From Serinicoccus chungangensis (lineage in GTDB: Bacteria; Actinomycetota; Actinomycetes; Actinomycetales; Dermatophilaceae), in contig NZ_LQBL01000027.1 in assembly GCF_001483745.1 (NCBI RefSeq), forward strand, positions 186,001 through 250,000: 64,000 nt of DNA, given 5' to 3'. Both the position numbers and the translations under genes were made by a program. The stretch's first letter is position 1. Each line of letters opens with the position of its first letter. Below the pieces are notes generated by a model. That model saw nothing but the letters and a program-made list of their open reading frames with translations. It had not been told where the DNA came from and searched no databases. Of this stretch, positions 14,385 to 64,000 are shown piece by piece.

Positions 14385-14390
14385 GGAGGC

Positions 14391-15911: not shown

Positions 15912-15914
15912 GCT
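15909..15914 (+). promoter_or_regulatory. -10 box TAGGCT of ppm1
   Basis: The box includes the TAG stop of lnt and lies 6 nt before ATG 15921, so ppm1 can be transcribed independently. Confidence 0.5.
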
Positions 15915-15920
15915 GACCGG

Positions 15921-17266: not shown

Positions 17267-17366
17267 GCCGCTGACTGGTCAGCAGCTCGACGGGAGCGCT
17301 ATCATGAGATGTTCCCCCCGCACACCGACCACTGCACCACGCTGCGTCCGGGACGGCGGACGGACG

Positions 17367-17393
17367 GGGAACACGGGGCGGTCGGTCGACGTT
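17367..17393 (+). promoter_or_regulatory. SigR/SigH-type promoter of rbpA (GGGAAC-N18-GTT)
   Basis: GGGAAC (17367-17372), 18 bp, then GTT (17391-17393, in context CGTTG). This fits the disulfide-stress ECF sigma consensus of SigR/SigH. rbpA is an established SigR target in Streptomyces, so the match is meaningful. Initiation near 17400 gives a leader of about 100 nt. Confidence 0.65.
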
Positions 17394-17497
17394 GACACCA
17401 GTCAGCAGGACGGTCACAGGTCCAGGTCTGGCGGCCGTCCACCGAACGCGACAGCGAACGATCACGCGTGTCCGATGACACGATGGGAGTGGAACAC

Positions 17498-17857
17498 ATG
17501 GCAGAGAGGTCCCTGCGCGGCACCAACCTCAGCTGGCTCTCCTTCGAGAGCGACGAGGGCGTCACCTTCAGCGACCGGGAGATCAGCCGCTACGTGTGCC
17601 CGGACGGGCACGTCAGCGAGCTGCCGTTCTCGGTCGAGGCGGAGATCCCGCCGATCTGGGAGTGCCGTTGCGGTCTCGACGCCAAGCTGGAGAACGGCCC
17701 CGAGCCCGAGCTGAAGGCCACCAAGCCCCAGCGCACCCACTGGGACATGCTGCTCGAGCGGCGCTCCGTGCCCGAGCTCGAGGAGCTCCTGGAGGAGCGC
17801 CTGGCCCTGCTGCGCGAGATGCGCGGCGAGAAGCCCCGGCGCAAGCGCAGCGCCTGA
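17498..17857 (+). CDS. rbpA: RNA polymerase-binding protein RbpA
   Basis: A 119-residue protein. It begins MAERSLRGTNLSWLSFESD, has a core with Cys residues (YVCPDGH and WECRCG) resembling a zinc-binding fold, a basic linker (KATKPQRTHWDML) and the sigma-interaction domain LLERRSVPELEELLEERLALLREM. RbpA stabilises RNA polymerase holoenzyme with the principal sigma factor and promotes open complexes. ATG 17498 is chosen over GTG 17468 from alignment to known RbpA starts and GGGAG 8 nt upstream. Confidence 0.95.
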   Translation: MAERSLRGTNLSWLSFESDEGVTFSDREISRYVCPDGHVSELPFSVEAEIPPIWECRCGLDAKLENGPEPELKATKPQRTHWDMLLERRSVPELEELLEERLALLREMRGEKPRRKRSA

Positions 17858-17873
17858 GGCACGACATACCCGC

Positions 17874-17915
17874 CGGTGAGGGCGTGGTCCGCGGACGCGG
17901 GTCACGCCCTCACCG
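17874..17915. terminator. Bidirectional hairpin between rbpA and the MFS gene
   Basis: GGTGAGGGCGTG (17875-17886) pairs perfectly with CACGCCCTCACC (17903-17914), extended by one C-G pair; the 16-nt loop contains the palindrome GTCCGCGGAC. It lies between convergent genes. There is no U-tract, as is common in high-GC genomes. Confidence 0.7.
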
Positions 17916-17926
17916 CGTCCTGGGGC

Positions 17927-19315
17927 TCACACCTTGCGCGGCTGCTCGTTGCCGGCCATCGCGATGCCCTTGCGCATGTCGACCCGGGTGAGGATCAGAC
18001 CCCCGACGACGAAGAAGGCGATGGTGACCAGGATCGCCGGGCGGTAGGACCCGGTGAGCTGGTAGGTGAGGCCGAAGGCGAGGGTCCCGAACCAGCTCGT
18101 GCCGCGCTCCATCGCCTGGTAGAAGCTGAAGTACTCCGACTCCTTGCCGGTGGGGACGAGCTGGGAGTAGAGGGAGCGGGACAGCGCCTGGGTCCCACCC
18201 ATGACGGTGCCGATGAAGACCGCGCAGACCAGCCAGATCGTGAACGCGCCGGTGGGCACGAAGTAGGCGAAGGCCACCACCAGCGTCCACATGACCAGGC
18301 CGCCCAGCACCGTGCGCTTGGCCCCGACCCGGCCGGCGATCACCCCGAAGACCAGGGCCCCGCCGAAGGCGACGAACTGCACGAGCAGGATCGTGATGAT
18401 GAGCTGGCTGGTGTCGAAGCCGAGGGCCTCGCTGCCGTAGAGGCTCGCCGAGGAGATGACGGTCTGGATGCCGTCGTTGAAGAACAGGTAGGCGAGCAGG
18501 AAGAGCAGGGTGTGCGGGTAGCCGCGCAGGTCGCCGAAGGTGTCCCGCAGCTGGGTGACCGTGCCGCCGAGCACCCCGGCCGAGCGCTCGACCGGGGTGG
18601 CCGTGGTGCCCCGGATGCGACGCAGCCCGATGACGGGGATGAGCGTGAACACCGCCCACCACAGTCCGGCCGACAGCAGGTTGAGGCGCACGGCCATCGT
18701 GTAGGAGATGCCGAGGGACTCGTGGACGGTCATGAGGCCGAGGTTGAGCGCCAGCAGGATGCCGCCGCCCAGGTAGCCCAGTGCCCAGGCTCTCGACGAC
18801 ACCCGGTCGCGGTCGTCGGGGGAGGCCACCCGCACGAGCAGGGCGTCGTAGACCACGGTCGAGGCCCCCAGGCACAGGTTCGCCACCACGATGAGCAGCA
18901 CCCCGAGCTCCCAGTTGCTGCCGTCGAGGAAGAACATCGAGGCGGCCGCGGCGGCGCCGACCCAGGCCAGGCCGCCGAGGAGCCACGTCGGACGGGGATG
19001 ACGGTCCGCGACGGCCCCGACGAAGAGCAGCACCACCGCCGACACCAGCGTGGCCACGGTGATGGTGTAGGGCGCGACCGACCCGACGGCCACCGGGACC
19101 CCGAGCACGGACAGCATCCGCTCGCAGCTCTGGCCCTCGGCCAGGTCCGGGCAGGCGTCGGCCCGGGCCAGCGCAGTGAGGTAGGGCGCGATGAGCACCG
19201 TCCCGGTGGTCGTGACGTAGGCGGAGTTGGCCCAGTCGTACCACCCGAAGGCGCGCTGGTGGGCGCGGGTGCGCTCGGACGCGGGGTCGGCCCGGGGCAC
19301 CGGGGGAGCAGTCAT
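17927..19315 (-). CDS. UMF1/Atg22-like MFS transporter
   Basis: A 462-residue membrane protein with about 12 helices. The N-terminal FGWYDWANSAYVTT is the signature of the MFS_22 (Atg22-like) family, whose fungal members export amino acids from the vacuole; bacterial substrates are unknown. A long insert around residues 90-110 contains two Cys (DACPDLAEGQSCERM), possibly an extracellular disulfide loop. Start ATG 19315 has TACGAT 7 nt upstream. The frame continues upstream to 20944, but that part is antisense to the AI-2E family gene. Confidence 0.88.
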   Translation of the reverse strand: MTAPPVPRADPASERTRAHQRAFGWYDWANSAYVTTTGTVLIAPYLTALARADACPDLAEGQSCERMLSVLGVPVAVGSVAPYTITVATLVSAVVLLFVGAVADRHPRPTWLLGGLAWVGAAAAASMFFLDGSNWELGVLLIVVANLCLGASTVVYDALLVRVASPDDRDRVSSRAWALGYLGGGILLALNLGLMTVHESLGISYTMAVRLNLLSAGLWWAVFTLIPVIGLRRIRGTTATPVERSAGVLGGTVTQLRDTFGDLRGYPHTLLFLLAYLFFNDGIQTVISSASLYGSEALGFDTSQLIITILLVQFVAFGGALVFGVIAGRVGAKRTVLGGLVMWTLVVAFAYFVPTGAFTIWLVCAVFIGTVMGGTQALSRSLYSQLVPTGKESEYFSFYQAMERGTSWFGTLAFGLTYQLTGSYRPAILVTIAFFVVGGLILTRVDMRKGIAMAGNEQPRKV

Positions 19316-51289: not shown

Positions 51290-51772
51290 ATGATCCACCT
51301 CGGGCACTGCCTGTGGTTCGACGACCAGGCGCAGGAGGCGGCCGAGTTCTACTGCTCGGTCGTGCCCGGCTCACGCGTCCTGGAGGTGAGCCGGTACGCC
51401 GCGGAGACACCCTCGGACAAGCCGGTCGGCTCGGTGCTGACGGTCGAGTTCGAGCTCGCCGGCGTGCGCTACACCGGCCTCAACGGGGGGCCGCACTTCA
51501 CCCCTGACGAGGCCTTCTCCCTCGTGCTCCGGACGGACACCCAGGAGGAGACCGACCACTACTGGGCGGCGCTGCTGGAGGGCGGCGGGCAGGAGAGCCG
51601 GTGTGGGTGGCTCAAGGACCGCTACGGCGTGTCCTGGCAGGTCTACCCGACCGAGCTGGACGAGCTGACCACCCACGAGGACCCGGAGGTTGCCCGTCGG
51701 GCCACCGAGGTGATGCTCACCCAGCGCAAGATCGAGATGGGCCCGATCCGGGAGGCCGCGCTCGGCGGGTGA
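51290..51772 (+). CDS. VOC family (PhnB-like) protein
   Basis: A 160-residue protein of the glyoxalase/bleomycin-resistance superfamily, PhnB/3-demethylubiquinone-methyltransferase-like type: HLGHCLWFDDQAQEAAEFYCSVVPGSRV, YTGLNGGPHFTPDEAFSLVL, GWLKDRYGVSWQVYP. Enzymatic role unknown. A strong GGAGGGAGA precedes ATG 51290. It is the last ordinary gene before the catabolic locus. Confidence 0.85.
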   Translation: MIHLGHCLWFDDQAQEAAEFYCSVVPGSRVLEVSRYAAETPSDKPVGSVLTVEFELAGVRYTGLNGGPHFTPDEAFSLVLRTDTQEETDHYWAALLEGGGQESRCGWLKDRYGVSWQVYPTELDELTTHEDPEVARRATEVMLTQRKIEMGPIREAALGG

Positions 51773-51818: not shown

Positions 51819-52325
51819 TCAGCCCTCGGCGCGGGCCAGCGTCAGGGTCTCGCCGCGGGCGCCGCCCATCCAGACGTCCTGGCAGGCGCGCGCCATCTCC
51901 GGCAGGCCCTCGACGATCTCGCCGAACACGTTGCCCGGCACCCACCCCTGGTCCCCGTTGATGAGCAGGTTGTTGCGCCCGTAGAACACGGCGAGGTCGA
52001 CGATGCCCCCCTCCCCCGCCGCGCGGTGCTCACGCTCGGTCTCGTAGCCGTAGGCGGGGTTGCCGAGGTCGGCGCCGTCGAAGGTGAACCAGCACACGTC
52101 ACCGGGGATGGGGGTGACCGTGGTGTTCTCCTTGCCGGGGTCGTCCCCGAAGCGGGGCAGCAGGGTGTAGATCTCGTTGCGGGCGTACTTGCCGTGGAAC
52201 ACCGGTGCGCTGAGGGGCAGGGCGTCCCACACCGCCGCGCACGTCCGGGGCGCCTCGTCCTCCAGCAGCCGCGCCCGGCAGGTGACGCCGCGGGTGTCCA
52301 GGGTGATGGTGATGAAGCGGCTCAT
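51819..52325 (-). CDS. DUF3830 family protein
   Basis: A 168-residue protein with the cyclophilin-like DUF3830 pattern: ITLDTRGVTCRARLLEDEAPRTCAAVWDALP, HGKYARNEIYTLLP, TPIPGDVCWFTF, VFYGRNNLLINGDQGWVPGNVFGEI. No biochemical function is established. ATG 52325 overlaps the amidase stop by 4 bp, so it is the third gene of an operon with the amidase and hydroxyacid dehydrogenase. DUF3830 genes are often seen beside amidase and EutA-like genes, which supports a shared catabolic role. Confidence 0.8.
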   Translation of the reverse strand: MSRFITITLDTRGVTCRARLLEDEAPRTCAAVWDALPLSAPVFHGKYARNEIYTLLPRFGDDPGKENTTVTPIPGDVCWFTFDGADLGNPAYGYETEREHRAAGEGGIVDLAVFYGRNNLLINGDQGWVPGNVFGEIVEGLPEMARACQDVWMGGARGETLTLARAEG

Positions 52326-53794
52326 GGGTGCTCCTCGGTCCGGTCCAGCAAAGGGGGTATGACGTCGCGCCAGCGGGTGCGCTCCTCCAGCGTGCGCCCC
52401 ACCCGGAGGGCGAGGGCGTCGGCGTGCCGGGCGCTCACCAGCTGCACCCCGACGGGCCGGCCGTCGTCGGTGAGCCCGGCGGGCACCGACAGCGCCGGCT
52501 GCTGGGTCATGTTGAAGGGGTAGGTGTACGGCGTCCACGACGTCCACAGCTGGTCGGGGTCGTCGGGTCCCTGGCGGGTGAGGTCGAAGGCGGGGCCGGG
52601 GACGGTCGGCGTGAGGAGCACGTCGTGCTCCTCGTGGAACAGGCCCATCCGTCGGCCCAGCTCCATCCGCACGGCGGTGGCGTCGAGGTAGTCGGCGGCG
52701 CTCACCCCCTGCCCGTAGCGACGGATCGCCCGCCGCAGTCCGGGGTCGACCTGCTCCAGGGCGTCCTGCCCGTAGGCCTGGACGACCTTGTCGGCACCGG
52801 TGAACCACAGCGTGTGGAAGGCCTCCAGGCAGCCGGTGCCGGCCAGGTCCGGGTCGACCTCCTCGACCCTGGCACCGGCGGCGGCCAGCACCTCCGCGGC
52901 CTCGAGCACCGCCCGGTCCACGGCCGGGTGGTTGACGACGTCGCCCCCCAGCCCCAGCCGCGGGGAGACCGCGACCCGCAGTCCCTCGACGCCGTGGTCG
53001 AGCCCGTCGAGGAAGGAGCGCGGCGGCTCCGGCAGCGCCGACCAGTCGCGGGGGTCGGGCACCCCGACGAGGTCGAGCATCAGGGCGGCGTCCGCGACCG
53101 AGGTCGTCATCGGACCGGCGTGGGCGAGGGTGCCGTAGGGGCTGGCCGGGTGCAGCGGCACCCGCCCGTAGGTGGGCTTGAGCGCCACGGTCCCGGTGAA
53201 GGCCGCCGGGATCCGCACGGAGCCCCCGCCGTCGGTGCCGACCGACCAGGCGCCCATCCCCAGGCCCACCGCGGCCGCCGCTCCCCCGCTGGACCCGCCC
53301 GCGGTGAGCGCCGGGTCCCAGGGGTTGCCCGTCGCGCCGTGCCGCAGCGAGTCGGTGGTGCCCTTCCAGGCGAACTCGGGCGTGGCGTTCTTGCCGAGGA
53401 GCACGCAGCCGGCTGCCCGCAGGCGCGCCACGGCGGGGGCGTCCTCGGGCCAGTCCGACCCGGTCCCGGGGTCGATGAGCCGGCTGCCCCGCAGCGTCGG
53501 CCACCCCCGGGTGAGCAGGATGTCCTTGATCGTCGTCGGTATGCCATCCGCCGGGCCGAGCGGCCGCCCCTGCTCCCAGCGGCGCGTCGACTCCCGGGCC
53601 GAGCGCCTGGCCCCCTCGGCGTCGACCAGCACCATCGCCCGCACGAGCGGGTCGAGGGCCTCGATCGCCGCCAGGGCCCGCTCCGTGGCCTGCTCGGGCG
53701 TCGTGGTGCCCGCGGCGTAGGCAGCCGAGAGCTCCAGGGCGGTCGGGCGGGACGGGTGACGGGGACCGGACCCGCCCAGGGGACCGGACGTCAT
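52322..53794 (-). CDS. Amidase (amidase signature family)
   Basis: A 490-residue amidase of usual length. The Ser-cisSer-Lys triad is visible: K in GIPTTIKDILL, the Gly/Ser-rich signature in GGSSGGAAAAVGLGMG, and TDGGGSVRIPAAFTG with the nucleophilic Ser. It hydrolyses an amide bond, substrate unknown. ATG 53794 overlaps the dehydrogenase stop (ATGA). It could open or deacylate the compound used by the locus. Confidence 0.92.
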   Translation of the reverse strand: MTSGPLGGSGPRHPSRPTALELSAAYAAGTTTPEQATERALAAIEALDPLVRAMVLVDAEGARRSARESTRRWEQGRPLGPADGIPTTIKDILLTRGWPTLRGSRLIDPGTGSDWPEDAPAVARLRAAGCVLLGKNATPEFAWKGTTDSLRHGATGNPWDPALTAGGSSGGAAAAVGLGMGAWSVGTDGGGSVRIPAAFTGTVALKPTYGRVPLHPASPYGTLAHAGPMTTSVADAALMLDLVGVPDPRDWSALPEPPRSFLDGLDHGVEGLRVAVSPRLGLGGDVVNHPAVDRAVLEAAEVLAAAGARVEEVDPDLAGTGCLEAFHTLWFTGADKVVQAYGQDALEQVDPGLRRAIRRYGQGVSAADYLDATAVRMELGRRMGLFHEEHDVLLTPTVPGPAFDLTRQGPDDPDQLWTSWTPYTYPFNMTQQPALSVPAGLTDDGRPVGVQLVSARHADALALRVGRTLEERTRWRDVIPPLLDRTEEHP

Positions 53795-54789
53795 ACCGCG
53801 ACCTGACCGGCGGGTGAGCGGGGGACGTAGCCCAGGTCCTTGTCGACGACCCCGCTCAGGGGCGCCCCGGCCAGGAAGCGGCGCGCGTTGGCGACGAACT
53901 GGTCGGCGAGGGTGTCCCGCCAGCCGACGACGTCACCGGACAGGTGGGCCGACAGCACGAGCCCGGGCGTGTCCCAGACCGGTGACCCGGGGGGTGGGGG
54001 CTCCTCCTCCAGCACGTCCAGCGAGGCACCGCCCAGCCGCCCCTCCCGCAGCGCGGCGAGGAGGTCCTCCTGCACGACGCTCGCCCCGCGGCCGATGTTG
54101 ACGACGTGCGCACTCGGCCGCATGGCCGCGAACACCGCGGCGTCGAGCAGACCGGTCGTGGAGGGGGTCAGCGGCGCGGCGTTGACGACGTGGTCGGCCC
54201 AGCCGACGTGCTCGGCGAGCGAGCTGCTCGCCACGACCTCGCCGAGCTCCGGGTCGTCCGGGACGGCCCGTCGGCCCACGGCGCGCACCTCGCACCCCAC
54301 CGCGCGCAGCAGGTGGACGGTCGCCCGGCCGATCCCTCCGGTGCCGATCACCATGACCCGCTGACCGGCCAGCAGCGCCGTCTCCCGGTGCTGCCACACG
54401 TGCTGGCGCTGCAGCTCCCGGCTCTCGTGCAGCCGTTTGGCGTGCGCGAGCACGCTGGCCAGGACGAACTCGGCGATGGGGCGGTCGAAGACCCCCTGGG
54501 CGTTGGTGACGGTGACCGGCGAGCGCACGAGCGCGGGGAAGAGCAGGCTGTCGACGCCGGCCGCGGCGACATGGATCCACTCCAGGGCGTCGGCGGCGTC
54601 CCAGGCGTCCTGGACGGCCGGGGAGAAGAAGTCCCAGAGGAAGAGGACCTGCGCCCCGCCGAGGGCCGACGCGAGGCCGTCGGCGTCCACGACGTCGAGC
54701 TCGAGGTCGTCCTCCAGGTCGGCCAGCTGGGGCGGCGGGTCCAGACCCGGCGCCGTCAGCACCACGGCTCGTGCGCGAGATCCCGTCAC
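53791..54789 (-). CDS. D-2-hydroxyacid dehydrogenase
   Basis: A 332-residue NAD(P)-dependent dehydrogenase. The dinucleotide motif is VMVIGTGGIGRATVHLL; catalytic Arg in VNIGRGASVVQEDLL, Glu in LEEEPPPPGSP and His in LVLSAHLSG. It interconverts a 2-oxoacid and a D-2-hydroxyacid. GTG 54789 has TACGGT 6 nt upstream and TTGACA 17 bp before that. First gene of the three-gene operon. Confidence 0.9.
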   Translation of the reverse strand: MTGSRARAVVLTAPGLDPPPQLADLEDDLELDVVDADGLASALGGAQVLFLWDFFSPAVQDAWDAADALEWIHVAAAGVDSLLFPALVRSPVTVTNAQGVFDRPIAEFVLASVLAHAKRLHESRELQRQHVWQHRETALLAGQRVMVIGTGGIGRATVHLLRAVGCEVRAVGRRAVPDDPELGEVVASSSLAEHVGWADHVVNAAPLTPSTTGLLDAAVFAAMRPSAHVVNIGRGASVVQEDLLAALREGRLGGASLDVLEEEPPPPGSPVWDTPGLVLSAHLSGDVVGWRDTLADQFVANARRFLAGAPLSGVVDKDLGYVPRSPAGQVAV

Positions 54790-54795
54790 ACGGTG

Positions 54796-54824
54796 ACCGT
54801 AGAAAGGCCGTGTCGGATTGTCAA
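54796..54824 (-). promoter_or_regulatory. Promoter TTGACA-N17-TACGGT of the dehydrogenase operon
   Basis: On the minus strand TTGACA (54824-54819), 17 bp, then TACGGT (54801-54796), 6 nt before GTG 54789. The -35 box lies inside the palindrome at 54815-54830, so a bound repressor would block polymerase. Confidence 0.75.
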
Positions 54825-54830
54825 CAATCC
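54815..54830. promoter_or_regulatory. GntR/FCD-type operator 1
   Basis: GGATTGTCAACAATCC is a perfect 7-bp inverted repeat with a 2-bp centre. It lies between the divergent dehydrogenase and EutA-like operons and matches the palindrome at 62526-62539 in 13 of 14 positions. The likely ligand-controlled binder is the GntR/FCD protein at 63346. Confidence 0.75.
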
Positions 54831-54845
54831 TCGTCGTCAGGCAGG

Positions 54846-55628
54846 GTGGGGCAGGTGCGTGAGATCCGCGAGGACGGGATCGGCGTGATCGTGCCCTACG
54901 ACTTCGCCCTGGACCGTGAGCTGTGGCGGTGGTGCCCCCTGGGCGCCACCCTGCACCTGACCCGCACGCCCCACCTGCCGCTGCCGGTGAGCATGGCCCA
55001 GGCGCGCGCGGTCCGGGCGCCCGGGGCGGTCAACCAGGCCACCCACGACCTGTCGGCGGTGCTGCCGGGCGTGGTGGCCTACGCCTGCACGTCCGGGAGC
55101 TTCGTCGCCGGCGCCCAGGGCGAGCGGGCGCTGCGCGAGACCGTCCTGGAGGCCGGCGCCCCCGCGGCCGTCACCACCAGCGGTGCCGCGGTCGGCGCCC
55201 TGCGCGCGCTCGGCGTCGACCGGGTCAGCGTCGTGACGCCCTACGACGAGGCGGTCACCGAGAGCCTGGGCCGCTTCCTCACCGCCGCCGGCATCCGGGT
55301 GGTCTCCGCCGGGCACCTCGGGCTGTCCGGGGAGATCTGGACGGTCCCCGAGGAGGTCACCGCCGACCTCGTGCGGCGCACGGTGGCCCCGGACGCGGGG
55401 GCCGTCTTCGTGTCCTGCACCAACCTGCGGACCTACGACCTGCTCGGCGACCTGGGAGCCGAGCTCGGCATACCCGTCCTCAGCGCCAACCAGGTCACCC
55501 TGTGGCTCGCCCTCGCGGTGCTGGGCCGCGCGGCCGTCGGCCCCGGTCAGGCGCTGCTCGACCACCGCCCCGACCTCGGGGACGGCAGCATCCTCAGCAC
55601 CACCGAGACCCAGCAGGGAGCACCGTGA
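54846..55628 (+). CDS. EutA/maleate cis-trans isomerase-like protein (Asp/Glu racemase superfamily)
   Basis: A 260-residue protein with both conserved cysteines of the superfamily: C81 in AYACTSGSFVAG and C191 in VFVSCTNLRTYDL. GVIVPYDFALDRELWRWCP begins the domain. Relatives include maleate isomerase, arylmalonate decarboxylase and EutA of the ectoine/hydroxyectoine operon. Given the ectoine-hydrolase-like gene that follows by 4-bp overlap (GTGA), EutA-like is the best reading. The start could be GTG 54846 or 54855. Confidence 0.82.
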   Translation: MGQVREIREDGIGVIVPYDFALDRELWRWCPLGATLHLTRTPHLPLPVSMAQARAVRAPGAVNQATHDLSAVLPGVVAYACTSGSFVAGAQGERALRETVLEAGAPAAVTTSGAAVGALRALGVDRVSVVTPYDEAVTESLGRFLTAAGIRVVSAGHLGLSGEIWTVPEEVTADLVRRTVAPDAGAVFVSCTNLRTYDLLGDLGAELGIPVLSANQVTLWLALAVLGRAAVGPGQALLDHRPDLGDGSILSTTETQQGAP

Positions 55629-56845
55629 CCGAGCTGACCGAGATCACCACGGCCGAGCAGACCGCCCACCCGCACACGCTCCGGGCCGAGCACGAGCAGC
55701 GCCTGGCCCGGGTGCAGGACGTGCTGGCCAGCCGCGGGCAGGACGCGCTCGTCGTGACCGACCCGGCCAACCTCTACTACCTCACCGGCTACAACGCCTG
55801 GTCGTTCTACATGCCGCAGGCCCTGCTGGTCCCGGTGCGCGGGGAGGCCCACCTGGTGCTCCGGGCCATGGACGCCAAGGGCGGGCACCACACCGCCACG
55901 CTGCCGCCCGAGCGCATCCACGGCTACCCCGAGCACTACGTCCACCGGCACGACATCCACCCCTGGGAGTGGATCGCCCGGCGCGGGCGCGAGGTCGGCG
56001 CGCTGCCCACCGGCCCGGCGGTCCTCGCCCTGGAGCTGGACGCCCACTACTTCAGCCCGCGCGCCTACCTCGCGCTGGGCGCCTGCCTGCCCCAGGCGCA
56101 GCTGGTCGACAGCCTCGAGCTGGTGAACTGGCTGCGCGTGGTGAAGTCGGACACCGAGATCGCGCTCATGCGGGCGGCCGGTGAGGTCACGGTGCGGGCC
56201 ATGACCGTCGCCGTCGACAGCCTGCGGGCGGGAGCCCGCCAGTGCGACGTGGTCGCGCAGATCCAGCAGGCGCAGGCCCACGGCACCGAGGCGCTGGGCG
56301 GGGACTACCCCGCCATCGTGCCGATGCTGCCGACCGGCGAGACCGCCGGCACCCCGCACCTGACCTGGGTGGAGGAGCCGCTGCGCCAGGGCGAGGCCAC
56401 GACGGTCGAGCTGGCCGGCGTGCACCGGCGCTACCACGTGCCGCTGGCGCGCACGGTCAGCCTGGGACCTCCCCCGGCCCGGCTGGCGCAGACCGCCGAG
56501 GCCACCGGCCTCGGGCTGGAGCAGGCGCTGGCGGCGATGCGGCCCGGCAGCACCACCGCCGACGTGCACGCCGCCTTCACCAGGACGATCGCCCGGTACG
56601 GCCTGTCGAAGGAGTCGCGGATCGGCTACTCCATCGGGATCGGCTACCCGCCCGACTGGGGCGAGCGCACGGTCAGCCTGCGCGCCGAGGACCACACCGT
56701 GCTGACCCCCGGCATGTGCTTCCACGTCATCCTCGGGATGTGGATGGACAGCTGGGGCTACGAGACCTCCGAGTCGGTGCTCATCACCGACGGACCGCCC
56801 GAACTGCTCGCCCCCCTCGACCAAGGACTGGTGACCCACCCATGA
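55625..56845 (+). CDS. M24-family hydrolase, DoeA/EutD (ectoine hydrolase)-like
   Basis: A 406-residue pita-bread (M24) protein. VVTDPANLYYLTGYNAWSFYMPQ, NWLRVVKSDTEIALMRAAGE, GGDYPAIVPMLPTG, APHLTW-like GTPHLTWVEEP, HRRYHVPLARTVSLG and GYPPDWGERTVSLRAEDHTVL closely resemble ectoine hydrolase DoeA/EutD rather than proline dipeptidases. DoeA opens ectoine to N-acetyl-2,4-diaminobutyrate. The true substrate here is not proven. GTG 55625 overlaps the previous stop, and its stop overlaps the aminotransferase start. Confidence 0.8.
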   Translation: MTELTEITTAEQTAHPHTLRAEHEQRLARVQDVLASRGQDALVVTDPANLYYLTGYNAWSFYMPQALLVPVRGEAHLVLRAMDAKGGHHTATLPPERIHGYPEHYVHRHDIHPWEWIARRGREVGALPTGPAVLALELDAHYFSPRAYLALGACLPQAQLVDSLELVNWLRVVKSDTEIALMRAAGEVTVRAMTVAVDSLRAGARQCDVVAQIQQAQAHGTEALGGDYPAIVPMLPTGETAGTPHLTWVEEPLRQGEATTVELAGVHRRYHVPLARTVSLGPPPARLAQTAEATGLGLEQALAAMRPGSTTADVHAAFTRTIARYGLSKESRIGYSIGIGYPPDWGERTVSLRAEDHTVLTPGMCFHVILGMWMDSWGYETSESVLITDGPPELLAPLDQGLVTHP

Positions 56846-58053
56846 CCTCCGCCGCCACCACCGGCCTCCCGCTGGCCTCCCGGACCGACCTGCTGGTCGG
56901 CTCGGTCATCGACTCCAGCACCTCGCTGCTGGCCCGGCAGACCCACGACATCGTCCGCTTCGCCATGGGCAGCCCGGCGGCCGAGGCGATCCCCACCGAG
57001 GCGCTCGCCGAGGCCGCCCGGACCGAGCTCGGCACGCCCGCGTCCTACGACTACGCGGCCACCGAGGGCGACCCGGGGCTCCGCGCGGCCCTGCTGGAGA
57101 TGCTCGCGGGGACGACCGACGCCACCACGGACGAGCGCCTCACCATCACCGCCGGCGGCATGCAGGGGCTCGACCTCGCCGCCAAGCTCTTCATCGACCC
57201 GGGCGACCTCGTCACCGTGGAGTCGCCGACCTACACCAACGGCAGCGCGACGGCCCTGGCCTACCAGGCCGAGCTGGCCGAGATCGAGGTCGACGAGGAC
57301 GGGATGTCCATCGACGCCCTCCGGGCCGCCGTGGACCGCGCGGGCCGCCCGCCCAAGGTCATCTACACCGTGCCGACCTTCCAGAACCCCTCCGGCACCT
57401 CGATGTCGCTGGACCGTCGCCGCGAGCTGCTGGAGCTGGCCCGCTCCTGGGGCAGCGTCGTCCTCGACGACGACCCCTACGGCATGCTGCGCTTCGCCGG
57501 GGACCCGGTCCCGAGCCTGCACGAGCTCGCCGACGGCGACCCCCTGGTCTTCTCGGTGCGCACCTTCTCCAAGATCGTCGCCCCCGGGCTGCGGGTGGGC
57601 TGGGTGGACGCCGACCCCTCGCTGGCCCAGCTGCTCATCCACGCCAAGCAGTCCATGGACACGTGCACCAACCTGCCCGCGCAACGGCTGGTCGCCGGCT
57701 TCCTGCGCTCGGGGCGGCTGGAGGTGCACCTGGCCGAGCAGCGGGAGGAGTACCGCCGACGCAAGGACACCATGCAGCAGGCGCTCGCCGAGCACTTCTC
57801 GGGCCGGGCGACGTGGACCGACCCCGAGGGCGGCTTCTTCCTCTGGGTGTCCTTCGACGAGCAGGTGGACACCGAGGCGCTCTTCGAGACCGCGCTCGCC
57901 GAGGGCGTCGCCTACATCCCGGGCAACGCCTTCTCCCCCGCCCGGCGCTTCCCCCACGACCTGAGGCTGTGCTTCGCCTCGACCCCCACGGACCGCATCC
58001 ACGAGGGGGTGGCGAGGCTGGCGCGCGCGGTGGACGTCGCCGCCGGCCCATGA
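56842..58053 (+). CDS. PLP-dependent aminotransferase (class I/II, 2-aminoadipate-type)
   Basis: A 403-residue fold-type I enzyme. SYDYAATEGDPGLRAAL, TAGGMQGLDLAAKLF, VPTFQNPSGTSMSLDRRREL, DDDPYGMLRF and the PLP lysine in RTFSKIVAPGLRVGW are clear. It matches MocR-like aminotransferase domains without the HTH (LysN/2-aminoadipate type). In this operon it would transaminate the amino acid released upstream. In known ectoine clusters the aminotransferase DoeD is class III, so this is a different family. Confidence 0.9.
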   Translation: MTSAATTGLPLASRTDLLVGSVIDSSTSLLARQTHDIVRFAMGSPAAEAIPTEALAEAARTELGTPASYDYAATEGDPGLRAALLEMLAGTTDATTDERLTITAGGMQGLDLAAKLFIDPGDLVTVESPTYTNGSATALAYQAELAEIEVDEDGMSIDALRAAVDRAGRPPKVIYTVPTFQNPSGTSMSLDRRRELLELARSWGSVVLDDDPYGMLRFAGDPVPSLHELADGDPLVFSVRTFSKIVAPGLRVGWVDADPSLAQLLIHAKQSMDTCTNLPAQRLVAGFLRSGRLEVHLAEQREEYRRRKDTMQQALAEHFSGRATWTDPEGGFFLWVSFDEQVDTEALFETALAEGVAYIPGNAFSPARRFPHDLRLCFASTPTDRIHEGVARLARAVDVAAGP

Positions 58054-59261
58054 CGGACGCCCGGCCGGCCGGCACCGAGCAGGAGGTGCTGGCCCGGATC
58101 ACCGCCGAGCGTCTCGTGCCGCTGGCGCAGCAGCTCGTCCGGGCCCCAGGCGCCAACCCTCCGGGTGAGGAGGCCGCGACCGCCGAGGCGCTGGCCGGGC
58201 TGGCCGAGGGCCTGGGGCTCTCGGCGGCGCTGGAGGAGGTCGAGCCGGGCCGGCCCAACGTCGGCGTGCGCCTCGACGGCGGCGACGGCCCCGGGCTGCT
58301 CTTCCTCGGGCACACGGACGTCGTCCCGCCCGGCCCCCTGGAGGACTGGGGCGTCGACCCCTACGCCGCCGACCTCGCCGACGGGCGCCTCGTGGGCCGC
58401 GGGAGCGCGGACATGAAGGGCGGGCTCGCGGCGGTGCTGCTGGCGATGGCCGCCGTGCGCGAGGCCGGGGTGCGGCTCACCGGGCCGGTCCTGCTGGACG
58501 CGCTGTGCGACGAGGAGCAGAACGGCATCGGCATCCGGCGCTACGTCGAGCAGACGGCACCCGACCTGTTGGGGTGCGTCGTGGCCGAGCCGACCGACCT
58601 GGCGACGGTCGTGGCCGCGCGGGGTGCGTCATACCTGCACATCGAGGTGCGCGGGGTCGCCGCGCACGCGGGGCGGCCGGCGGACGGTCGCAACGCCATC
58701 AGCGGCGCCGCGCTCGTCGTCGCCGACCTGGACCGCTGGCACGAGGAGCTGGCGGGCACCGCGCACGCCCTGGTGGGCCCGGCGACCGTCAACGTCGGCG
58801 TCATCCAGGGGGGCACCTCGGGGTCGGCGGTGCCCGACCTCTGCCGGGTCGAGGTGGACCGCCGGCTGCTGCCGGGGGAGTCGATGGAGGCGGTCGTCGA
58901 GACCGTGCGCGGGCGGCTCGAGGCCCTGGACCTCGGGGCGCGCGGGCTGACCTGGTCGGTGACTTCGCCCATGGACATGCCCGGCTTCGAGACCGCCCCG
59001 GAGGAGCCGTTCGTGCGGACCGTGGACGCGGCCATGAGCGGGGCCGGGCGCGGGCCGGTGCCCCTGCAGGGGTGGACGGCCGCCTGCGACGGCGGCTTCG
59101 TGGCGCAGGCGTGGGGCATACCGGTCGTGGTGCAGGGCCCTGGCTCGGTCAACGAGCAGGCCCACCGCCCGGACGAGTCGGTGGCCGTGGAGGAGCTCGT
59201 CGTCGCGGCCCGCGGCTACGCCCGCACGATCCTGCACCTCCTCGCACCGGACGCGCGCTAG
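58050..59261 (+). CDS. M20 family ArgE/DapE-type deacylase
   Basis: A 403-residue zinc hydrolase: FLGHTDVVPPG (His-x-Asp), GRGSADMKGGLAAVLLAM (bridging Asp), DEEQNGIGI (Glu pair), then the dimerisation domain with GVAAHAGRPADGRNAI. Family members remove acetyl, succinyl or other acyl groups from amino acids. In ectoine degradation the N-acetyl-diaminobutyrate deacetylase (DoeB) belongs to another family, so this may be a replacement. ATG 58050 overlaps the aminotransferase stop. The last codons (APDAR) lie inside the first unit of a 22-bp repeat. Confidence 0.9.
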   Translation: MTDARPAGTEQEVLARITAERLVPLAQQLVRAPGANPPGEEAATAEALAGLAEGLGLSAALEEVEPGRPNVGVRLDGGDGPGLLFLGHTDVVPPGPLEDWGVDPYAADLADGRLVGRGSADMKGGLAAVLLAMAAVREAGVRLTGPVLLDALCDEEQNGIGIRRYVEQTAPDLLGCVVAEPTDLATVVAARGASYLHIEVRGVAAHAGRPADGRNAISGAALVVADLDRWHEELAGTAHALVGPATVNVGVIQGGTSGSAVPDLCRVEVDRRLLPGESMEAVVETVRGRLEALDLGARGLTWSVTSPMDMPGFETAPEEPFVRTVDAAMSGAGRGPVPLQGWTAACDGGFVAQAWGIPVVVQGPGSVNEQAHRPDESVAVEELVVAARGYARTILHLLAPDAR

Positions 59262-59588
59262 CCACACACCGAACACGTCACCAGCGCGCACCGAACACGT
59301 CGTCAGCACCCCCAGGACGTGCGCAATGGCACAGACACGACTCGTCGGTCGAGACACGCGTCCTGTGTGTCGCCAACACGCGTCCGGAGCGACCCGACGG
59401 CGCGTCCTGTGCATCACGAACACGCGTCCGGAGCGCACCGACGGCGCGTCCTGTGCATCACGAACACGCGTCCGGAGCGCACCGACGACGCGTCTTGTGC
59501 ATCACGAACACGCGTCCGGAGCGCACCGACGACGCGTCCTGTGCATCACGAACACGCGTCCGGAGCGCACCGACGGCGCGTCCTGTGC
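59246..59588. repeat. 22/44-bp tandem repeat array B
   Basis: Three 22-bp units begin at 59246, 59268 and 59290 (ACCGGACGCG, ACCGAACACG, ACCGAACACG), the first covering the M20 stop codon. A degenerate stretch follows, then 44-bp units at 59379, 59423, 59467, 59511 and a truncated one at 59555, each opening CGCGTCCGGAGCGCACCGAC. The reverse complement of the 44-mer matches units 5-6 of array A at all but two of its first 29 bases. The array fills the convergent gap before the FAD oxidoreductase stop. Confidence 0.93.
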
Positions 59589-59590
59589 GG

Positions 59591-62509
59591 CTACCGCGGG
59601 CCCGGCGCGGACGCGGTGCCCGCCGCCTGGGTGCGGGGTATGCCGTCGGCCAGCAGCTCGGCGAGGTGGCGGCCCTGGCGGGCGGTGAGGTCGGCGATCT
59701 GGGTGCGGCAGGAGAAGCCGTCGGCGAGGACCTCGGTGGCGGCGTCCGCCGCGCGGACCTCCGGGGCCAGCACCCGCTCGCCGATCTGCCGTGAGAGGTC
59801 CGCGTGCCCGTCCTCGAAGCCGAAGTTGCCGGCCAGCCCGCAGCACCCGGAGTCGGGCACCCGCGCCCGGATCCCGGCACGCTCCATGAGCGCCCGGTCG
59901 GCGTCGAAGCCCAGCACCGCGTGCTGGTGGCAGTGGACCTGGACGAGGGCCTCCCGGCCGACCTGCGGCGGCTCCCACCCGGGCGCCACCTCGGCGAGCG
60001 TCTCGGCCAGCGTCCGCACCTGGCCCCTCGCGAGCGCGGCGAGCTCGTCGTCGGGGAGCAGGTCGACCGCCTCGTGCCGGAAGAGCGCCGTGCAGCTGGG
60101 CTCGAGCCCGACGACCGTCGCCCCCGCCCGCAGCGCCGGCCCGACGGTCGCCAGGGACCGCCGCAGGACCCGTCGGGCCACCCCGAGCTGGCCGGTCGAG
60201 ACCCAGGTCAACCCGCAGCACACCGGCCCGCGCGGCAGGTGCACCTCCATCCCGGCGTCCTCGAGCACGGCTACCGCGGCCCGGCCCACCTCGGGCGCGA
60301 GGTGGGTGGTGAAGGTGTCCGGCCAGAGCAGGACCGGGGTCCGCCCCTCCCCTCGCGCCGGCGTGTGCTCCCGGGCGAACCACGAGGTGAAGCTCTGCGT
60401 GGCGAAGGTCGGCAGCTCCCGGTCCGGGGCGACGCCACCGGCCCGCCGCACCAGACCGGCCAGGCGCGACCCGGTCAGCGCGTTCGCCGTCCTCGGGGCG
60501 AGGGCGGCACCGCGCGCGAGCACCGGCAGCCACCCCATCGACCAGTGCGACCGCGGCCGCGCCCAGGGCCGGCCCCGGTAGAACTGGTGGGTGAACTCGG
60601 CCTTGTAGCTCGCCATGTCGACGTTGACCGGGCAGTCGCCCACGCATCCCTTGCAGGACAGGCACAGGTCGAGCGCGTCGTGGACCTCCTCCGCCCGCCA
60701 CCCGTCGGTGATGACGTCGCCCTCCATCATCTCGAACAGCACCCGCGCCCGGCCGCGGGTGGAGTCCTTCTCCTCCCGGGTCACCTGGTAGCTCGGGCAC
60801 ATCACCCCGCCCGAGGTCTGCACGCACTTGCCCACCCCGACGCACCGTCGCTGCGCCTGGGCGAAGCTCCCCCCGTCGGCCGTGAAGGCCAGGGTGGTGC
60901 GCTGCGGGAATCCCTGCGCGTGGCCGTGCTGGCGCAGCGCCGCGTCGACCGGCGGGGGGTCCACCACGACACCGGGGTTGAGCCGGCCCTCCGGGTCCCA
61001 CACGCGCTTGACCTCCGCGAACAGCGCCGTCGCGTCCGCGCCGTACATCCGCTCCAGCAGCCCCCCGCGCGCCCTGCCGTCGCCGTGCTCGCCCGAGACC
61101 GACCCGCCCAGGGAGACGACCAGGTCGGTGGCCTGCTCGACGAAGCCGCGGTAGGCCCGGACCCCCGCATCGGTGACGAGGTCGAAGTCGATGCGCAGGT
61201 GCATGCAGCCCTCGCCGAAGTGGCCGTAGGACGCCCCCGAGTAGCCGTAGCGCCCCATGAGCTCTTCCAGCGAGGTGAGGTAGTCACCCAGCCGCTCCGG
61301 CGGGACGGCGGCGTCCTCCCAGCCCGCCCACGCCTCGGCGCCGTCGGCGCGGCGCGTCGCCAGCCCGGTGCCGTCGCGCCGGCAGCGCCACAGCACCGCC
61401 TGGGCGCCTGGGTCGGTGACGACCGCCGCCGTGCTCCCGGGTATGCCGTCACGCACCGCCGCGGCCACGTCACCGGCGCGGGTGCGGGCCTCGGCGTCGT
61501 CCGCACCGCCGATCTCGACGAGCAGCCACATGCGTCCCTCCGGCAGGCCGGCCTGCTGCGCGGCGCGGCGGGTGTCGTCGGGCAGCCGCTCGACGAGCGT
61601 GGCGTTGATCGACTCCATCGTCAGCGGACCGTGCGGCAGCACGGTCGGCACGCTGCGCGCGGCCGACACCGCGTCCGGGAAGCCCAGCGTCAGCAGGACC
61701 ACCGCGGGCGGCGGCTCGGCGAGCGCGACGGTCGCCTCCAGCGTGGTGGCGAGGGTGCCCTCGCTGCCGCACAGCAGCCGTGCCAGGTCGACGCCGCGGT
61801 CGGGGTGCAGGTGCTGGAGGGCGTACCCCGAGATCTGCCGGGAGAAGGTCCCGAAGCGCCGGCCGATGAGGGTCGCATGGTCCCGGCCGAGGCGGGACAT
61901 CTCGGCGTGGATGCCGGCCAGGACGGGGTCGGGCGGCGTCGACCCCCTGGGCCCGGCGCCGCCCGGGCCGAGGGAGTCCACGCGGGCCTGCTCCCCCGCC
62001 GCGGTGAGCACCCGCAGGCTCCGCACGTTGTCGGCCGTGGTGCCCCAGGCGACCGAGTGGGCGCCGCAGGCATTGTTGGCGATCATCCCGCCGAGCGTGC
62101 ACCGGCTCGCCGACGACGGGTCGGCGCCGAAGGTCAGCCCGTGGCGCTGCGCCGCCGCGACGAGGTGGCCGAGCACGACCCCCGGCTGGACGGTCGCCGT
62201 CCGCGCGACCGGGTCGAGGTCGAGGACGCGGTCGAGGTGCCGCGAGACGTCGACGACCACGCCGCCGAGCGCGTTGCCGGCCATCGAGGTCCCTCCCCCG
62301 CGCAGCGCCACCGGTGCGCCGGCCTCCCGCGCCAGCCCCAGCGCCGTGACGAGGTCCTGCTCGTCCCGCGGAACCACGACGACGTCGGGCACGACGCGGT
62401 AGTTCGACGCGTCGGTGGCGTAGAGCGCCCGCGAGAGCGCGTCCGCGCCGACCGACCCCCGCACCTGCGCCTCGAGGGCCCGGGAGAGCCGGGCGACGTC
62501 GTACTCCAT
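59591..62509 (-). CDS. FAD-binding and 4Fe-4S oxidoreductase (GlcD-Dld/CCG fusion)
   Basis: A 972-residue protein. N-terminal FAD_binding_4 domain (PVALRGGGTSMAGNALGG, FGADPSSASRCTLGGMIANNACGAHSVAWG), FAD-oxidase C domain (YGHFGEGCMHLRIDFDL, SGEHGDGRARGGLL), two 4Fe-4S motifs (CVGVGKCVQTSGGVMCPSY; CLSCKGCVGDCPVNVDM) and two CCG domains (GPVCCGLTW; DSGCCGLAGNFG). This is the D-lactate/glycolate-type dehydrogenase plan with electron transfer to quinone or cytochrome. It could pass electrons from a 2-hydroxyacid made in the locus. ATG 62509 follows AGGAGG 4 nt upstream. Confidence 0.9.
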   Translation of the reverse strand: MEYDVARLSRALEAQVRGSVGADALSRALYATDASNYRVVPDVVVVPRDEQDLVTALGLAREAGAPVALRGGGTSMAGNALGGVVVDVSRHLDRVLDLDPVARTATVQPGVVLGHLVAAAQRHGLTFGADPSSASRCTLGGMIANNACGAHSVAWGTTADNVRSLRVLTAAGEQARVDSLGPGGAGPRGSTPPDPVLAGIHAEMSRLGRDHATLIGRRFGTFSRQISGYALQHLHPDRGVDLARLLCGSEGTLATTLEATVALAEPPPAVVLLTLGFPDAVSAARSVPTVLPHGPLTMESINATLVERLPDDTRRAAQQAGLPEGRMWLLVEIGGADDAEARTRAGDVAAAVRDGIPGSTAAVVTDPGAQAVLWRCRRDGTGLATRRADGAEAWAGWEDAAVPPERLGDYLTSLEELMGRYGYSGASYGHFGEGCMHLRIDFDLVTDAGVRAYRGFVEQATDLVVSLGGSVSGEHGDGRARGGLLERMYGADATALFAEVKRVWDPEGRLNPGVVVDPPPVDAALRQHGHAQGFPQRTTLAFTADGGSFAQAQRRCVGVGKCVQTSGGVMCPSYQVTREEKDSTRGRARVLFEMMEGDVITDGWRAEEVHDALDLCLSCKGCVGDCPVNVDMASYKAEFTHQFYRGRPWARPRSHWSMGWLPVLARGAALAPRTANALTGSRLAGLVRRAGGVAPDRELPTFATQSFTSWFAREHTPARGEGRTPVLLWPDTFTTHLAPEVGRAAVAVLEDAGMEVHLPRGPVCCGLTWVSTGQLGVARRVLRRSLATVGPALRAGATVVGLEPSCTALFRHEAVDLLPDDELAALARGQVRTLAETLAEVAPGWEPPQVGREALVQVHCHQHAVLGFDADRALMERAGIRARVPDSGCCGLAGNFGFEDGHADLSRQIGERVLAPEVRAADAATEVLADGFSCRTQIADLTARQGRHLAELLADGIPRTQAAGTASAPGPR

Positions 62510-62525
62510 CTGTCCTCCTGACGAT

Positions 62526-62541
62526 GATTGTCTACAATCTA
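62526..62541. promoter_or_regulatory. GntR/FCD-type operator 2 with divergent -10 boxes
   Basis: GATTGTCTACAATC (62526-62539) is a perfect 6-bp inverted repeat around CT. It contains TACAAT (62533-62538), a -10 box for the plus-strand EutA-like gene, and its complement with the next bases gives TAGATT (62541-62536) for the minus-strand oxidoreductase. One bound regulator would cover both. Confidence 0.72.
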
Positions 62542-62587
62542 CGCACCAGCCGGCCGAGGACGACGGCCGCCGTCGACAGGGGTGAGC

Positions 62588-63349
62588 GTGAGCACGATCG
62601 GGATCCTCTACCCCGGCCACAGCGCCGAGGACGACTACCCGTGGGTGGAGGGGGTGCTCCGCGAGGCGGGGTATGCCGTGCGCCTGCCGGTCGCGCACAC
62701 CAGCGTCGGCGAGGACGCGCACCGGGTCGACGCGCTGCTCGACCTGGGCGGTGCGGCGCGGCTGGCCGAGGGTGCCGACCGGCTGACGCGCAGCACCCCC
62801 TGCGACGCGCTCGTGTGGGCGTGCACCTCGGGCAGCTTCGTCTTCGGCTGGGAGGGGGCGCACGAGCAGGTGGGCGGGCTGGCCGCCCGCACCGGGCTGC
62901 CGACCACCTCGACCTCGCTCGCGTTCGTCCGGGCCGCGCACCGGCTGGGGCTGACGCGGGTCGCGGTGGCAGCGTCCTACCCGCACGACGTCGCCTCGGC
63001 CTTCGTGACCTTCCTGGGCCGCGCCGGCATCGAGGTGACCGCCCTGGGCAGCCACGACATCCTCACCGCCGCCGAGGTCGGCACCCTGGGCCGTGAGCAG
63101 GTGCTGGCCCTCGCCGACGGCGTCGACCGCACCGGGGCGCAGGCGGTACTCGTCCCGGACACCGCCCTGCACACCCTGCCCTGGCTAGCGGACCTGGAGG
63201 CCCACCTCGGGACCGTCGTGCTCACCGCCAACCAGGTGAGCCTGCACGACGGGCTGGCGCTGCTGGGCGAGGTGCCGGCGGTGCCGGGGCTGGGGCGGCT
63301 CTTCGCGGAGCCCCGCCGCCCCGCGCCGACGGACGGGGCGGCGGCATGA
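62588..63349 (+). CDS. EutA/Asp-Glu racemase-like protein lacking the second Cys
   Basis: A 253-residue paralogue of the protein at 54846: GILYPGHSAEDDYPWVEGVLREAG, C79 in VWACTSGSFVFGWEGA, SYPHDVASAFVTFLGRAGIEV. At the position of the second catalytic Cys it has VLVPDTALHT (Asp191), so two-base racemase chemistry is not expected; a decarboxylase, hydrolase-like or binding role is possible. Start GTG 62588 has AGGGG upstream; GTG 62582 is possible. Stop overlaps the GntR start (ATGA). Confidence 0.8.
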   Translation: MSTIGILYPGHSAEDDYPWVEGVLREAGYAVRLPVAHTSVGEDAHRVDALLDLGGAARLAEGADRLTRSTPCDALVWACTSGSFVFGWEGAHEQVGGLAARTGLPTTSTSLAFVRAAHRLGLTRVAVAASYPHDVASAFVTFLGRAGIEVTALGSHDILTAAEVGTLGREQVLALADGVDRTGAQAVLVPDTALHTLPWLADLEAHLGTVVLTANQVSLHDGLALLGEVPAVPGLGRLFAEPRRPAPTDGAAA

Positions 63350-64000
63350 GCGAGCCCGGGACCGAGGTCGGCGTCCCGGCGCTGCGACCGGTGCCGCGCG
63401 AGTCGACCCCGAGCATCGTCGCGGCGCGCATCCGCGAGGCCATCGCCAGCGGGGAGATCGCCCCCGGCAGCCAGCTCGGCGAGGTGGAGTACGCCGCGCG
63501 TCTCGGCGTGAGCCGCGGCCCCCTGCGCGAGGGTCTGCAGCGGCTCTCTCAGGAGGGCCTCTTGGTGGCCCACCGCAACCGCGGCCTCTTCGTCGTCGAG
63601 ATGACCGACGACCGGGTCCGCGACCTCTACCTCGCCCGGGCGGCGGTCGAGCGGGCCGCGGGGGACCGGATCCACGAGACCGACCCGCAGGAGGCGAGCC
63701 AGGCCCTGCTCGCCGTCGTGGACGACATGGCGGCCGCCGCGGCGACCGGCGACGTGCGCCGGGTGTCCACGGTCGACATCCGCTTCCACCAGGTGCTGGT
63801 GGACCGGGCCCGCAGCCCGCAGCTGTCCCGCTTCCACGCCACCCTGCTCACCGAGACGCGGATGTGCATCCACCTGCTGGAGCCGACCTACGCGGTGGAC
63901 GAGGAGCGCGTCGGCGAGCACCGGGAGATCGCCCGGTCCTTCACCCGGGGCGGGGCTCGCCGCACCGACGCCCTGCTCGTCCGGCACATGCGCGACGCCA
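63346..64000 (+). CDS. GntR family, FCD-domain transcriptional regulator (3' end outside window)
   Basis: About 218 residues are visible. The winged helix is STPSIVAARIREAIASGEIAPGSQLGEVEYAARLGVSRGPLREGLQRL, followed by an FCD helical domain with metal-ligand residues (VDIRFHQVLVDRARS, GEHREIARSF, LLVRHMRD). FCD regulators usually repress catabolic operons and are released by an organic acid. It is co-translated with the EutA-like gene. I infer that it binds the GATTGTCWACAATC sites at 54815 and 62526. Confidence 0.9.
   Translation, partial: MSEPGTEVGVPALRPVPRESTPSIVAARIREAIASGEIAPGSQLGEVEYAARLGVSRGPLREGLQRLSQEGLLVAHRNRGLFVVEMTDDRVRDLYLARAAVERAAGDRIHETDPQEASQALLAVVDDMAAAAATGDVRRVSTVDIRFHQVLVDRARSPQLSRFHATLLTETRMCIHLLEPTYAVDEERVGEHREIARSFTRGGARRTDALLVRHMRDA

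Follow-up and report, generated by a model that had tools for sequence, protein, structure and literature searches.

We analyzed a catabolic gene cluster of Serinicoccus chungangensis that begins at position 51,819 of a 64,000-nucleotide stretch of its genome (the window; contig NZ_LQBL01000027.1, positions 186,001 to 250,000) and runs past the end of that stretch. We found that the cluster is one regulon, real and widely conserved, with about 12 genes under joint control. Ectoines are osmoprotectants of wide distribution, with many actinobacteria among their producers, and we consider it highly likely that the cluster serves the catabolism of this family of compounds. Our fuller reading is a regulon for ectoine and 5-hydroxyectoine catabolism with two separable entry modules, X and Y; for this reading as a whole, with the route as proposed below, we judge the chances to be about even. 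We lean slightly toward module X acting on hydroxyectoine, and we are somewhat more doubtful that the 2-hydroxy-acid route is correct as written. Many actinobacteria probably feed on ectoine and hydroxyectoine through this gene set. The route involved seems distinct from that of other bacteria, and one of its enzymes may be a protein of the family DUF3830. An earlier note on this DNA had left the substrate open; ectoine or 5-hydroxyectoine is now likely.

All ten genes named in that note were confirmed with their strands and coordinates, as was its picture of a divergent catabolic locus with 4-bp overlaps inside the multi-gene units; the genome is 3.56 Mb. On the minus strand, overlapping in turn, are genes for the DUF3830 protein (51819..52325; 168 amino acids), an amidase-signature hydrolase (52322..53794; 490 amino acids; PF01425 and NF004815 above cut-off) and a D-2-hydroxyacid dehydrogenase (HADH; 53791..54789; 332 amino acids; PF02826/PF00389). 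Divergent from these, on the plus strand, is a second overlapping unit that encodes EutA-like protein 1 (EutA1; PF17645; 54855..55628), a predicted M24 ectoine hydrolase of the DoeA/EutD type (55625..56845; 406 amino acids), a class I/II aminotransferase of the 2-aminoadipate-transaminase type (AT1; 56842..58053) and an M20 deacylase of the ArgE/DapE type (58050..59261; TIGR01910 above cut-off). A single minus-strand gene (59591..62509) follows for a 972-amino-acid D-2-hydroxyacid dehydrogenase of the YdiJ/GlcD-GlpC type with flavin adenine dinucleotide (FAD) and 4Fe-4S domains (FAD/Fe-S). The last overlapping pair, on the plus strand, encodes EutA-like protein 2 (EutA2; PF17645; 62588..63349) and a GntR/FCD regulator (63346..64068, cut by the window's end at 64000). 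After the regulator, in continued coordinates, come an SSADH-like aldehyde dehydrogenase (ALDH; 64056-65594, minus), a class III, gamma-aminobutyrate (GABA)-transaminase-like aminotransferase (AT3; about 65661-66911, plus) and a BCCT transporter (67092-68837, minus). The earlier comparison of the core with ectoine degradation was right about the DoeA-like M24 and missed the class III aminotransferase and the aldehyde dehydrogenase just past 64000.

One palindrome, GATTGTCNACAATC, is present in all three divergent gaps. It forms predicted operators between HADH and EutA1 (GATTGTCAACAATC, 54816..54829), between FAD/Fe-S and EutA2 (GATTGTCTACAATC, 62526..62539) and between ALDH and AT3 (65624-65637 in continued coordinates). 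These are the only three perfect copies in the genome; a search allowing up to two mismatches found one further place with one mismatch and three with two. The one-mismatch copy, on contig C8, was rejected as a member of the regulon, as it lies inside a long open reading frame that contains repeated domains and, by eye, seems unrelated. The palindrome was first spotted by eye and by pattern; a repeat search of the promoter gaps had not listed it. The start codons of EutA1 and EutA2 were picked by eye. The longest open reading frame of EutA1 starts at 54771 and would overrun the operator, and that of EutA2 starts at 62528, inside it.

The window contains two copies of the palindrome's core, TTGTnnACAA, and both lie within the cluster; past 64000 the core is found again in the ALDH/AT3 gap and ahead of the BCCT gene (TTGTCGACAA, 68866-68875). 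These sites join ALDH, AT3 and BCCT to the cluster. Among 105 related loci that have four or more cluster genes, we counted 244 intergenic core sites (0.78 per kb). Gene interiors held 43 (0.05 per kb), and DNA outside the cluster held 12 (0.015 per kb). Intergenic sites were present in 100 of the 105 loci; 73 of the sites were in the EutA1/HADH gap and 32 in the ALDH/AT3 gap. Dinucleotide-shuffled versions of the 112 loci included gave totals of 4, 3, 5, 1 and 4 core sites in five rounds. We infer that the GntR/FCD protein of the cluster binds the palindrome. The layout of four separate units that had been described for the locus holds, but one operator ties the units together and their genes fall into two modules.

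Module Y consists of M24, AT1 and M20, and module X of EutA1, EutA2, DUF3830 and the amidase; GntR, HADH, AT3 and ALDH accompany either one. We compared 80 DUF3830 loci from named genomes and further fetched ones, all fetched via DUF3830 or M24, so that the presence of one anchor is by design. From the 131 loci entered, we dropped eight second copies of genomes already present and then 41 of the remaining 123, which had no anchor or less than 7 kb on one side of it, leaving 82 complete loci. The 7-kb filter also removed nine Serinicoccus-type loci, including that of the window, in which DUF3830 is near the end of the stretch; those loci carry the set. A gene was counted as present once it passed an identity threshold (among others, 55% for AT1, 40% for M24 and 30% for M20), and since the loci are mutually related the counts that follow are not independent events. 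AT1 was present in 28 and M20 in 30 of the 37 M24-positive loci, and each in none of the 45 M24-negative loci. The amidase was found in 70 and EutA1 in 71 of the 72 DUF3830-positive loci, both being absent from all ten DUF3830-negative loci, and HADH accompanied DUF3830 in 68 of 72. Locus L189 carries module Y without X (HADH, AT3, FAD/Fe-S, ALDH, M24, AT1 and M20), and L062 and L066 are also Y-only, with no visible M20. Module X stands without Y in most Mycolicibacterium loci (not M. agri, L101), in Nocardioides and Nesterenkonia, and in L077, L079, L082 and L083, which are from large genomes.

The same separation was seen at the level of genomes. When two samples of 396 genomes from the phylum were searched, DUF3830 turned up in 43 (better than 1e-50 in about 19) and M24 in 13; among the matches listed, the two sets have two genomes in common. 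At 1e-20, a DoeA-like protein was missing from 14 of 16 X-only genomes, and the other two gave weak matches (173 and 86 bits). AT1 was present at 61% identity or more in all three M24-positive genomes tested, and the best match in the 16 X-only genomes was 38%. We therefore rejected the earlier view that the cluster is simply built around M24, because module X is mostly found without it. The gene set as such recurs, as the earlier note had proposed to check, in further actinobacterial families, with its order scrambled in Arthrobacter and Enemella loci, and for this reason the cluster is not a chance assembly. The closest DUF3830 loci in named genomes were from Serinicoccus (98% and 89% identity), and a search of a plasmid collection with DUF3830 gave one weak match.

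Several neighbors of the modules were seen in single lineages. In a distant member of the phylum (L085, genome G153, about 7158-8270, minus strand) a different M24, 30% identical, adjoins module X and was perhaps recruited independently. Four Kribbella loci (L118, L120, L129 and L134, about 11312-18000) carry, on the far side of DUF3830, a displaced M20 gene along with two additional amidase-like genes. SecY and adenylate kinase, frequent neighbors in Mycolicibacterium, were set aside as housekeeping genes.

The M24 protein groups with DoeA/EutD and not with Xaa-Pro peptidases. It scored 401 bits against the DoeA model TIGR02993 versus 69 bits against PepQ, and its best solved relative was DoeA (6twj, 4e-103) versus 1e-18 for the best prolidase. 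In a phylogeny with moderate support and several long outgroup branches, the cluster M24 proteins form a group (support 87/90) with annotated DoeA and with the M24 proteins of EhuBCDA loci, of Natrialba and of a Rhizobium eutBC locus. The next branch (95/93) is a Tsukamurella protein annotated as ectoine hydrolase, and the five proteins of the Xaa-Pro peptidase or aminopeptidase P type fall outside. These results bear out the expectation that M24 would group with DoeA rather than with proline dipeptidases. In a previous tree that used the genome's own M24 paralogues as the outgroup and left out L175 and L176, three of these paralogues fell outside and the fourth (L202) was in an unresolved fork with a branch length of 9. 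M20 accompanies M24 elsewhere as well: in distant members of the phylum EhuBCDA precedes M24 in seven of ten loci and M20 follows it in nine of ten, and a Natrialba locus has M24, M20, HADH and FAD/Fe-S. On a plasmid of Rhizobium sp. CCGE531 (L209, 2908-10152), two M24 genes, M20, EutB and EutC lie in one cluster that has no annotated DoeB, and M20 may thus stand in place of DoeB in Proteobacteria too.

Importers of compatible solutes lie beside part of the loci. An importer of the EhuABCD, ProP-like or BCCT type was nearby in 53 of 121 loci: the Ehu quartet in 10, a ProP-like protein (at least 49% identity) in 31 and BCCT in 12. None of the three was within the fetched stretch of the other 68, and Nesterenkonia L140 has a different transporter-like gene. 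Where only EhuA matched, at about 29-38% identity, we regarded the protein as a different ABC (ATP-binding cassette) ATPase and did not count it. One Arthrobacter locus carries the set except for ALDH; its EhuA, EhuB, EhuC and EhuD were all above the equivalog cut-offs, and its EhuB is closest to S. meliloti 2q88. In L164 all Ehu subunits of the quartet were checked against their cut-offs, and in L079 EhuD was. EhuABCD adjoins module X in seven loci with no M24 in the stretch, and at those places EhuB was above the equivalog cut-off in genomes G388, G226 and G280. A conserved gene, of the IclR/winged-helix type by eye, flanks EhuABCD in L077, L079, L082 and L083 and is perhaps a second regulator.

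Beyond base 64000, where the earlier note had suggested listing transporters, the window's own genome has the BCCT gene. That genome had no EhuB at 1e-25 and no ectoine synthase, and the organism would therefore consume ectoines that enter through BCCT or a carrier not recognized here. Among 15 genomes, seven had ectoine synthase with module X, three had the synthase with module Y only and five had no synthase. EutB was above cut-off in none of 12 genomes, in agreement with the earlier report of no eutB at the locus, and all 12 had sub-cut-off dehydratase relatives. DoeB was above cut-off in none of 17 genomes, eight of which had sub-cut-off relatives. No EutC model was among the matches listed for the scanned cluster proteins; no genome-wide search for EutC was made.

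EutA1 has two catalytic-type cysteines, and both were present in 83 of 83 distinct homologues. In EutA2 an aspartate replaces the second cysteine in 68 of 68 distinct homologues, and the first is kept in 64 of them. Family, genomic context and these cysteines suggest an EutA-like function for the pair. DUF3830 (PF12903) scored 220 bits against a Pfam gathering cut-off of 26, has a homologue of solved structure from Arthrobacter sp. FB24 (3kop) and has 41 invariant columns across 45 homologues. It is modeled with a cyclophilin-like fold (predicted local distance difference test score, pLDDT, 87), and the next-best folds were the Pictet-Spenglerases McbB and KslB, whose cyclophilin-like domain could be superposed on it for 134 residues (about 2.0 Å, about 20% identity), a better fit than that of cyclophilins. 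McbB is called cucumopine synthase in its own PDB entry. We propose DUF3830 as a candidate ring or imine hydrolase and the amidase as an N-deacetylase.

AT3 was 28% identical to Atf and closest to GABA transaminases, which weakened its assignment as DoeD. ALDH was 47% identical to the Leisingera Ssd. A homologue of FAD/Fe-S, 36% identical, adjoins the D-2-hydroxyacid dehydrogenase gene in the Natrialba M24 locus. That HADH, AT3 and ALDH are common to both modules suggests a 2-hydroxy-acid lower route, and supports the 2-oxoacid/2-hydroxyacid step already sketched in the earlier note.

The reactions that we propose are all predictions from sequence. In module Y, M24 would open the ectoine ring, M20 would remove the acetyl group in place of DoeB, and AT1 would transaminate the alpha-amino group of (acetyl-)diaminobutyrate to give 4-amino- (or 4-acetamido-) 2-oxobutanoate. 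In module X, EutA1 and EutA2 would strip the 5-hydroxyl of 5-hydroxyectoine by cysteine-based abstraction of the alpha-proton with loss of water, and DUF3830 would hydrolyze the resulting cyclic imine or enamine to 4-acetamido-2-oxobutanoate and ammonia. Because this step would already yield a 2-oxo acid, module X would need no alpha-transaminase; the amidase would then deacetylate. In the shared steps HADH would reduce the 2-oxo acid, AT3 would act on 4-amino-2-hydroxybutanoate, ALDH would make D-malate and FAD/Fe-S would convert D-malate to oxaloacetate. In its most specific form, which we put forward only tentatively, this is a 5-hydroxyectoine route of Actinomycetota free of DoeA and EutB, in which the EutA pair dehydrates the ring, DUF3830 opens the imine, and the carbon exits through a branch of 4-amino-2-hydroxybutanoate and D-malate; the ectoine module would feed into this branch by means of an alpha-aminotransferase of its own.

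A number of observations weigh against this reading, besides the relatedness of the loci. The 401 bits of M24 are below the curated DoeA cut-off of 613, and EutA1 and EutA2 score 100 and 69 bits against the EutA equivalog TIGR02990, whose cut-off is 318. The fold score of DUF3830, high as it is, shows no function. The core palindrome was absent from all 12 M24 loci that have no AT1 and thus does not mark ectoine loci in general. M24 occurs without AT1 in nine of 37 loci, and L112 and L115 hold M24, M20 and module X but no AT1. HADH was not seen in four DUF3830 loci (L090, L113, L128 and L170). FAD/Fe-S was seen in 16 of the 82 complete loci, many of whose stretches are too short to show it, and there was no AT3 or ALDH within the stretch in the four loci L077, L079, L082 and L083, where module X is beside Ehu. 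The BCCT gene of the window's genome adjoins a choline sulfatase gene and could serve betaine. Finally, the DoeA/EutD of R. pomeroyi is reported to give alpha-acetyldiaminobutyrate (alpha-ADABA), which has no free alpha-amino group (PMC8739950; this and the other papers cited are represented here by portions of their text), and AT1 would therefore have to act after M20.

We weighed three other explanations. The locus could run the classical doe route with swapped parts, in which M24 opens ectoine, M20 replaces DoeB, and AT3 and ALDH replace DoeD and DoeC to yield L-aspartate. AT1 would then merely deaminate aspartate or glutamate, HADH and FAD/Fe-S would handle side products, and module X, in the way proposed for EutABC, would turn hydroxyectoine or its open form into the ectoine series. 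That pathway is the one described for Proteobacteria (PMC5924519, PMC13188858), the likeness of ALDH to Ssd fits it, and EhuBCDA-M24-M20 loci without AT1 or HADH exist. However, AT3 is far from Atf, and in complete loci without module X, HADH tracks AT1 and not M24. Module X also occurs with HADH, AT3 and ALDH in genomes without DoeA, EutB (four X-only) or DoeB (four X-only) above cut-off, so that a route via ectoine has no known hydrolase there. We consider this explanation rather unlikely.

Less probable still, in our judgment, is that module X degrades some other cyclic or N-acylated solute taken up by the same importers and resides with module Y because of a common regulator and common lower enzymes. 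The 14 of 16 genomes with X and no DoeA-like match, the lost second cysteine of EutA2 and the breadth of the amidase family would fit this. Against it, the importer family that adjoins X in the seven loci without M24, with EhuB above cut-off in three genomes, is that for ectoine and hydroxyectoine, and EutA family genes, within EutABC, are required for hydroxyectoine use in R. pomeroyi (PMC8739950). The ectoine synthase counts bear on it weakly, with seven of the 15 genomes having both synthase and X. Very improbable is the scavenging of peptides or dipeptides by a prolidase-like M24 and an M20 aminoacylase with unrelated oxidoreductases nearby. M24, M20 and the amidase do belong to common peptidase and amidase families, but a prolidase or peptide locus was rejected by the model scores, the PDB match and the tree, and the transporters recognized were all of the solute-importer type (peptide transporters were not searched for).

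Other features were seen in and around the cluster. A gene resembling the VOC/PhnB family by eye, with no NCBIfam match, adjoins DUF3830 (window 51290-51772). It recurs only in six of nine Serinicoccus-type loci (plus three second copies of the same genomes) and for that reason was excluded from the set. A 44-bp tandem array (window 59357-59588; 5.3 copies, 94% match) fills the convergent gap between M20 and FAD/Fe-S, and was not found by exact probes in seven related loci. Beyond the cluster (L002 18970-19999, L003 511-3512) there are choline-sulfatase-like, SUMF1/EgtB-like and second BCCT genes, so that osmolyte genes are concentrated near it.

Taken together, the findings make it plausible that this is a variant of ectoine catabolism with a route not known before, and they give DUF3830 a candidate role. 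This would be a first function for the DUF3830 family, which has a solved structure (3kop) but no assigned role, as the earlier note had remarked. A literature search that left most subscription journals outside its coverage found nothing under the name DUF3830 and no title or abstract on this route. A 2026 survey (PMC13188858) states that Gram-positive ectoine catabolism had not been described before and needs experimental proof, and terms its putative Actinomycetota clusters provisional. A hydroxyacid dehydrogenase has been listed among genes of undefined role in ectoine clusters (PMC5924519), and EutABC is needed for hydroxyectoine use, its activities being uncertain (PMC8739950). The proteobacterial EutR regulon and actinobacterial ehu genes have been described (PMC5320631, PMC5884947); the portions covered do not describe this set. 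With its defined genes, its palindrome and its separable modules, the regulon makes the questions of Gram-positive catabolism and of the role of EutABC directly testable.

EutA1 and EutA2 are members of the arylmalonate decarboxylase/maleate isomerase family (PF17645). EutA1 has the two-cysteine arrangement, whereas EutA2 has aspartate for the second cysteine, and both are far below the cut-offs of the EutA and decarboxylase models. DUF3830 shares the fold of one domain with McbB and KslB, whose entries show amine and aldehyde or 2-oxo acid substrates; those proteins have longer chains, the likeness is one of fold, and the direction proposed for DUF3830 is hydrolysis. The putative Gram-positive and archaeal clusters of PMC13188858 are similar in combining EutD-like proteins with amidohydrolase or peptidase and aminotransferase genes and with BCCT or Ehu importers, often without eutE. 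They were found through EutD plus EutB, and the text portion covered mentions no amidase, DUF, hydroxyacid or M24-free version, nor Streptomyces or Arthrobacter. With the proteobacterial clusters (ehuABCD/uehABC, eutABCDE, ssd, atf and enuR; H. elongata doeABCDX) the regulon shares a DoeA-like M24, an EutA-family protein, a class III aminotransferase, an SSADH-like dehydrogenase, a GntR-superfamily regulator and, in relatives, a compatible-solute importer. It differs in having no EutB or DoeB above cut-off, M20 and the amidase in place of DoeB, and the additional alpha-aminotransferase, HADH, FAD/Fe-S enzyme, DUF3830 and paired EutA paralogues. Its regulation differs as well: an FCD-type GntR protein and a common palindrome serve divergent units, whereas the proteobacterial genes form one operon with the MocR-type EnuR and AsnC.

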